NCBI GenBank assembly: GCA_038852285.1
Contig: JAWCKG010000014.1
Location: forward strand, 1-45,148
Direction: 5' to 3'
Length of the DNA: 45,148 nt
From: Candidatus Bathyarchaeia archaeon
Lineage (GTDB): Archaea > Thermoproteota > Bathyarchaeia > 40CM-2-53-6 > DTGE01
Made by a program: the position numbers and the translations under genes. Under the pieces are notes generated by a model. The model was not told the origin of the DNA. It saw nothing but the letters and a program-made list of their open reading frames with translations, and did no database searches. Positions 23,694-27,221 of this stretch are shown one piece after another (the first letter of the stretch is position 1; every line of letters starts with the position of its first letter).

Positions 23694-23792
23694 TGGCGCC
23701 GGGAGAGGGATTTGAACCCTCGTGACCCGAAGGGTCATCGGCTCTCCGCCTAGGGTTAGCAAGCCGACGCCATACCGCTAGGCGATCCCGGC
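23694..23792 (-). tRNA. tRNA-Ser(GCU) with a 13-base intron, CCA encoded
   Basis: On the minus strand the acceptor stem GCCGGGA pairs with TCCCGGC, followed by discriminator G and an encoded CCA. The T arm is GAGGG-TTCAAAT-CCCTC. A long variable arm (TGACCC-TTCG-GGTCA) marks a class II tRNA, and the anticodon loop TTGCTAA between TCGGC and GCCGA gives anticodon GCU. About 13 bases (plus-strand 23744-23756) interrupt the loop at the canonical 37/38 position, as in archaeal tRNA introns removed by the splicing endonuclease. Confidence 0.93.
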
Positions 23793-26947: not shown

Positions 26948-27056
26948 CTATCGATTAAAACAGCGCCTCTTTAAACAGAAATTTAACGTTAAACCAGCAT
27001 CTCCCCATTATAAAACAAAAACCTTTAAACTCTCTTCTTGAAAAGAAAGGGGTAGC

Positions 27057-27221
27057 GGGCCCGTAGCTCAGCCAGACCTTCACGGTCCTGAAAAGGTAGA
27101 GCACCGGTGGCATAACATGAACCCGGTGAAGCTTTTAACCTGAGCTGGAGGCCACCCGGAGAACGGGCTCAAAGCCTAATTCGGGCAAGGGTCTCGGGTT
27201 CAACTCCCGGCGGGCCCGCCA
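27057..27221 (+). tRNA. tRNA-Lys(UUU) interrupted by four introns
   Basis: Acceptor GGGCCCG (27057-27063) pairs with CGGGCCC (27211-27217), then G and an encoded CCA. The T arm is TCGGG-TTCAACT-CCCGG. A normal tRNA results only if four segments are removed: about 27076-27095 (D loop, 20 nt), 27108-27130 (between positions 30 and 31, 23 nt), 27138-27153 (canonical 37/38, 16 nt) and about 27162-27190 (variable loop, near 29 nt). The joined exons give D loop AGCCAGGTA, anticodon stem CCGGG/CCCGG, loop CTTTTAA (UUU) and variable region AGGTC. Introns 1, 2 and 4 form local hairpins with exon sequence. Exact borders are uncertain by one or two bases. A CCTTTAAAC box lies near 27022. Confidence 0.85.

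Follow-up and report, generated by a model that had tools for sequence, protein, structure and literature searches.

A tRNA-Lys(UUU) gene with four BHB-type introns predicted in an archaeon of the class Bathyarchaeia

The window analysed here, a stretch of 45,148 nucleotides, contains at 27057-27221 (+) a gene for tRNA-Lys(UUU) of 165 nt, which is built from five exons and four introns and encodes its CCA end. Intron sequence makes up 88 of the 165 nt. Taking sequence and comparative data together, it is very probably a functional gene, expressed as a single transcript and interrupted by four archaeal introns of the bulge-helix-bulge (BHB) type. A lysine tRNA with four introns had been proposed in the first-pass annotation, and is confirmed both by a parser that recovers the gene unaided and by orthologues in related genomes.

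Structure and detection of the gene

Positions of exons and introns are provided in Table 1. After removal of the introns all stems pair, with TTCAACT in the T loop and CTTTTAA in the anticodon loop; the fully paired stems and the anticodon loop rebuilt earlier agree with the cloverleaf found by the parser. The acceptor stem is formed by 27057-27063 and 27211-27217, followed by the discriminator G (27218) and CCA (27219-27221). The spliced product reads GGGCCCGTAGCTCAGCCAGGTAGAGCACCGGGCTTTTAACCCGGGGGTCTCGGGTTCAACTCCCGGCGGGCCCG-CCA, and the mature molecule is predicted to be a standard tRNA of 77 nt. The boundaries of introns 1 and 3 can each be shifted by 1 nt (for intron 1 because A27074 equals A27094). 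A hand placement of intron 4 at 27161-27187, with a CCCG/CGGG helix and a variable loop of 7 nt, was dropped: intron-free and single-intron orthologues have a variable loop of 5 nt (GGGTC), and the intron is therefore placed at 27160-27188. Other tRNA genes of the same genome are likewise preceded by TATA-like runs, located at roughly -28 to -38.

Table 1. Features of the tRNA-Lys(UUU) locus, in window coordinates.
Feature	Position	Strand	Description	Basis
TTTAAA, TATA-like, possible promoter	27024..27029	+	28-33 nt upstream of gene	sequence, inference only
Exon 1	27057..27073	+	tRNA positions 1-17, GGGCCCGTAGCTCAGCC	parser
Intron 1	27074..27093	+	20 nt, position 17/17a	parser and orthologues
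Exon 2	27094..27107	+	positions 17a-30	parser
Intron 2	27108..27130	+	23 nt, position 30/31	parser and orthologues
Exon 3	27131..27137	+	positions 31-37, anticodon UUU 27134-27136	parser
Intron 3	27138..27153	+	16 nt, canonical position 37/38	parser and orthologues
Exon 4	27154..27159	+	positions 38-43, ACCCGG	conservation among relatives
Intron 4	27160..27188	+	29 nt, position 43/44	parser and orthologues
Exon 5	27189..27221	+	positions 44-73 and encoded CCA	sequence and parser

Run on the window, neither ARAGORN nor the Rfam tRNA model calls a tRNA at 27057-27221. We used our own dynamic-programming parser, which searches for the best cloverleaf while introns of at least 10 nt are allowed between any two positions; its scores and costs are self-devised, and only the contrast between scores is meaningful. 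The first version contained no BHB terms; later on, the scoring of the D loop was corrected and BHB-aware intron costs were added. With the BHB-aware version the best parse of the locus has four introns and a score of 58.8, against a mean of 18.8 (s.d. 3.7, maximum 30.9) for 240 dinucleotide shuffles and a maximum of 32.7 for non-tRNA stretches of the same genome with a T-arm-like motif. Given the silence of the standard finders it might be argued that tRNA-like pieces have come together by chance, but the real score lies 28 units above the best of the shuffles and orthologous genes are found across the class Bathyarchaeia, which makes chance exceedingly improbable. The same holds for a split or permuted tRNA gene, or for group I or II introns. 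Split and permuted tRNA genes do exist in archaea (PMC3218864; PMC4090602), but here the five exons share one strand of a 165-nt stretch and keep their normal succession, neither at separate loci nor rearranged, and self-splicing would require introns longer than the 16-29 nt seen here.

Elsewhere in the window (23694-23792, -) ARAGORN reports a tRNA-Val(AAC). This call looks wrong, as our own parse (L011) yields a tRNA-Ser(GCU) with an intron at 37/38 and a long variable arm.

Splice motifs and the number of introns

A BHB motif, strict or relaxed, surrounds each pair of splice sites. Introns 1 and 2 are strict, with central helices of four Watson-Crick pairs: UCAG/CUGA for intron 1 (27068-27071/27088-27091), with bulges of 3 nt and an inner helix of 4 bp (GACC/GGUC), and CACC/GGUG for intron 2 (27102-27105/27125-27128). 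Intron 3 is of the relaxed bulge-helix-loop form, where CUUU (27132-27135) pairs with GAGG (27148-27151) over 4 bp including two G-U, and its inner helix is weak. Intron 4 is relaxed as well: ACCC (27154-27157) and GGGC (27183-27186) form three Watson-Crick pairs and an A.C, around an inner hairpin GGGCU/AGCCU. The full ACCC/GGGU helix is present at the corresponding site in a relative (G003), in the genome's own tRNA-Lys(CUU) and in a second, partial copy of the gene on contig C17. The BHB-like pairings noticed on first inspection for introns 1, 2 and 4 are thus retained (strict for 1 and 2, relaxed with A.C for 4), and the pairing of intron 3 comes in addition.

At 30/31 the exon and intron halves of the helix co-vary between tRNAs (CACC/GGUG in UUU, CAGC/GCUG in CUU, CGAC/GUCG in Met and CGGC/GCCG in Arg), although these counts are biased, being taken from parses that reward pairing; the exon half, however, is fixed by the tRNA. 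Folding of the precursor with ViennaRNA at 37 C gives helix probabilities of 0.52 for intron 1, 0.89 for intron 2 and 0.98 for intron 4, and no appreciable probability for the helix of intron 3; at intron 4 a continuous helix of 6 bp is preferred to the BHB register. We consider these folds weak evidence, since for the mature tRNA ViennaRNA misses even the anticodon arm.

The sequence of the window by itself does not fully settle whether three or four introns are present, so that relatives are needed. In a three-intron gene, a single intron of 46 nt at 42/43 would replace introns 3 and 4 and the anticodon stem would be closed by CCTG-G. The structure-only parser favoured this arrangement (in a parse that carried an implausible D loop of 7 nt and was superseded by the corrected, BHB-aware version), under BHB scoring it falls just 3.0 units below the four-intron parse, and in G005 and G010 the parser likewise picks the merged intron. 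On the other hand, no BHB pairing is available to the merged intron, and introns 3 and 4 occur independently: the former without the latter in G002, G006, G018, G022, G240 and G242, the latter without the former in the tRNA-Lys(CUU) genes of this genome and of G001. Moreover, intron-free orthologues read ACCCGG without interruption at the place of the exon that separates the two introns, and this exon is kept between both introns in G001, G003, G005, G010, G019, G212 and others. The orthologues settle the matter for four introns, and we regard the three-intron gene as very unlikely.

Related genes in the class and in the same genome

The best named matches of the ribosomal protein uS12 (73-85%) are to Bathyarchaeota MAGs; by this marker the host is an archaeon of the class Bathyarchaeia. 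Comparison with orthologous tRNA-Lys genes, which had been suggested as a check, shows relatives that lack introns 1, 2 and 4 singly or together. Within the same order, the tRNA-Lys(UUU) gene carries introns at 37/38 and 43/44 in G003, G015, G019 and G021, at 30/31 and 37/38 in G022, at 17/17a, 30/31 and 37/38 in G002, G006, G018, G027 and G037, at 17/17a, 37/38 and 43/44 in G008, and at 30/31, 37/38 and 43/44 in G036. The last combination is also seen in other orders (G038), as are 9/10, 37/38 and 43/44 (G213) and 37/38 only (G240 and G242).

Seen per intron, intron 1 is missing in G003, G005, G010 and G022 (its junction, CTCAGCCAGGTAGAGC, runs unbroken in the latter three), intron 2 in G003, G008, G019 and G212, intron 3 in the genome's own tRNA-Lys(CUU) and in intron-free members of the class, and intron 4 in G240 and G242. 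Since orthologues and the own tRNA-Lys(CUU) carry differing subsets, each of the four introns is, judged from these sequences, a separate unit able to be present or absent alone. The four places named for the introns at the outset are supported by the same data, as each junction is uninterrupted in some relatives. In other families tRNA-Lys(UUU) genes without any intron exist (for instance L294 and L300); GAGCACCGGGCTTTTAACCCGGGGGTC, which spans positions 22 to 48 and equals the spliced window sequence across introns 2-4, is unbroken in other-family genes, and 65 of 73 positions are identical between L300 and the spliced window gene. A pattern of 25 nt of uninterrupted exon sequence (at most 3 mismatches) occurs in 74 of the 257 genomes of the class, with a few of these matches coming from other tRNAs. 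The surroundings of the window locus were compared with those in relatives and synteny is not conserved. Further sites in this gene are 19/20, 21/22 and 22/23, one of which holds the only intron of some tRNA-Lys(UUU) genes in other families of the class (L295-L305).

Among the genomes searched, G001 is the other member of the same family, and its tRNA-Lys(UUU) gene has four introns too. These are located at 9/10 (CCCG/CGGG), 30/31, 37/38 and 43/44, the first one replacing the 17/17a intron of the window gene. The G001 gene sits midway along a 179-kb contig, at a locus unrelated to that of the window, so that the four-intron state is unlikely to be an accident of assembly.

The genome of the window (G000) contains a tRNA-Lys(CUU) gene (L158; G000:C31:1398, +) that is interrupted at 17/17a, 30/31 and 43/44 but lacks the 37/38 intron. 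Its intron 1 is identical letter for letter to that of the window gene, which suggests that the intron was copied from one lysine tRNA gene to the other, or that the two underwent gene conversion; the introns at 30/31 and 43/44 are its own. A census, partial in that some isotypes were not recovered, gives about 56 introns in 36 resolved tRNA genes: 32 have at least one intron, 17 have at least two, and the window gene is the only one with four.

Further observations were made on other tRNA genes. Three introns each are found, in the same genome, in tRNA-Leu (CAA and TAA; L137 and L157, the long variable arm of Leu being excluded), tRNA-Cys (L143) and tRNA-Arg CCT (L020). Introns also lie at 8/9, where the acceptor stem passes into the D stem, in tRNA-Asn (L006, -) and tRNA-Cys (L143) of G000. 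CAT-anticodon tRNAs from another family of the order (L200, L217 and L225 in G004, G009 and G013) have at 17/17a an intron (agatc...gatcctgaag) of the type seen in the window gene; such sharing between isotypes has been described for Thermoproteales.

A second intact tRNA-Lys(UUU) gene, with the window copy left untranscribed, had been named as an observation that would overturn the first-pass reading. No intron-free tRNA-Lys(UUU) was found in the own genome, which was covered by searches and by stretches taken around tRNA candidates, but a second 3' half, consisting of exons 4-5 with introns 3-4, is located at a contig end (G000:C17:41654-41745, -; loci L155/L288) and may belong to a second gene or be a variant from another strain. 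Two substitutions separate it from the window copy; both fall at the end of intron 4 and restore the ACCC/GGGU central helix. The downstream DNA differs as well and includes a T-run after the gene, absent after the window copy. An integrated element was considered as the source of this 3' half, but no integrase was seen in the Pfam annotation of twelve genes, half of them close to the C17 end and half flanking the window tRNA.

The better helix and the T-run, together with the 58 nt of identity from the contig end (as expected at a branch of the assembly graph), might indicate that the window holds a duplicate, decaying or chimeric, and that the working gene ends on C17, most likely still with four introns. 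We hold this to be an improbable, though not negligible, alternative. The exons of the window copy join into a tRNA without faults, its CCA is encoded and a TATA-like element precedes it, the two copies match in having introns 3 and 4, and the unrelated mid-contig locus of G001 independently has four introns. A functional four-intron gene in the window is the preferred reading.

Maturation and comparison with known systems

The genome encodes two EndA paralogues and one RtcB ligase (E 2.4e-175). EndA alpha (L260) is closest to the alpha subunit of Aeropyrum pernix (E 8.5e-50) and is identical to it at the catalytic His133 and at Lys44 of the specificity loop (CSL), a lysine that confers broad specificity on the A. 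pernix endonuclease (PMC6379350). The beta paralogue (L261) has both EndA domains and a gap at the catalytic His, and the two are inferred to form a crenarchaeal-type (alpha-beta)2 enzyme. An endonuclease of broad-specificity type and a ligase are thus both encoded. In comparison to A. pernix (3P1Z, 3AJV; PMC6379350), the alpha homologue with its two key residues and the beta-like paralogue are shared, whereas complex and activity are predicted here from the genes.

The locus would be transcribed into one pre-tRNA of 165 nt, processed through eight cuts by the (alpha-beta)2-type EndA that this genome encodes, and RtcB would then join the five exons into the tRNA of 77 nt. In the precursor, introns 1, 2 and 4 would hold positions 12-15, 25-28 and 39-41, i.e. 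the 5' strand of the D stem and the 5' and 3' strands of the anticodon stem. As these strands are tied up, the cloverleaf could form only after removal of the three introns. Intron 3 should leave last, since the anticodon stem is its outer helix; the likely order is hence introns 1, 2 and 4 first and intron 3 at the end. Ordered removal has a precedent in the iterative search of tRNAscan-SE 2.0, where one intron may need to be removed before the next motif forms (PMC8450103).

Published work gives a maximum of three introns per archaeal tRNA gene, mainly in Thermoproteales (PMC8450103, PMC4033280). The first-pass remark that multi-intron tRNAs are known mainly from that group agrees with the reviews, whereas the host, by its uS12 neighbours, belongs to Bathyarchaeia and not to Thermoproteales. 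Much is shared with the multi-intron tRNAs of Thermoproteales (Sugahara 2008; PMC8450103; PMC4033280): several short BHB introns per gene at canonical and non-canonical sites (30/31 and 37/38 among them), an (alpha-beta)2 EndA, and similar introns across tRNA species. The differences are the host class and the count of four introns in a single gene, where three is the stated maximum. The sites 17/17a, 43/44 and 9/10 (the latter in G001) are unnamed in the list of PMC4090602, which ends with 'etc.'. For N. equitans and some Staphylothermus, that paper also describes tRNA-Lys(CUU) genes that are split at 30/31; isotype family and 30/31 disruption correspond, but the gene reported here is a single one that would be spliced in cis.

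The literature searched contained neither four-intron tRNA genes (the per-gene maximum of Atabeyarchaeia and Freyarchaeia, in the supplement of PMC11291895, fell outside the search) nor a description of tRNA introns in Bathyarchaeia. According to PMC11291895, 92-95% of tRNA genes in Atabeyarchaeia and Freyarchaeia have introns, over half of them several; these intron-rich tRNAs resemble the present set (32/36) but belong to an Asgard lineage, and four-intron genes may occur there too. Four introns per gene therefore seems to be the highest count in the literature searched, with Bathyarchaeia as an added lineage for a kind of gene already known. It is somewhat more probable than the opposite that the order around this genome has the most interrupted tRNA genes reported, with two different intron sets of tRNA-Lys(UUU) in the two genomes of one family and at least seven intron sites for this gene across the class. 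If so, maturation must be ordered, as the D and anticodon stems are tied up by three of the introns.

Summarizing, as far as the literature search reached, the count for one tRNA gene rises from three to four, in Bathyarchaeia. As ARAGORN and the Rfam model miss the gene, the tRNA sets of this lineage and estimates of MAG quality may be understated. Since orthologues with many intron subsets exist, the gain, loss and copying of introns between tRNA genes should be traceable in one gene, and the window pre-tRNA would be a demanding natural substrate with which to ask whether a single endonuclease takes out multiple introns in a fixed order.
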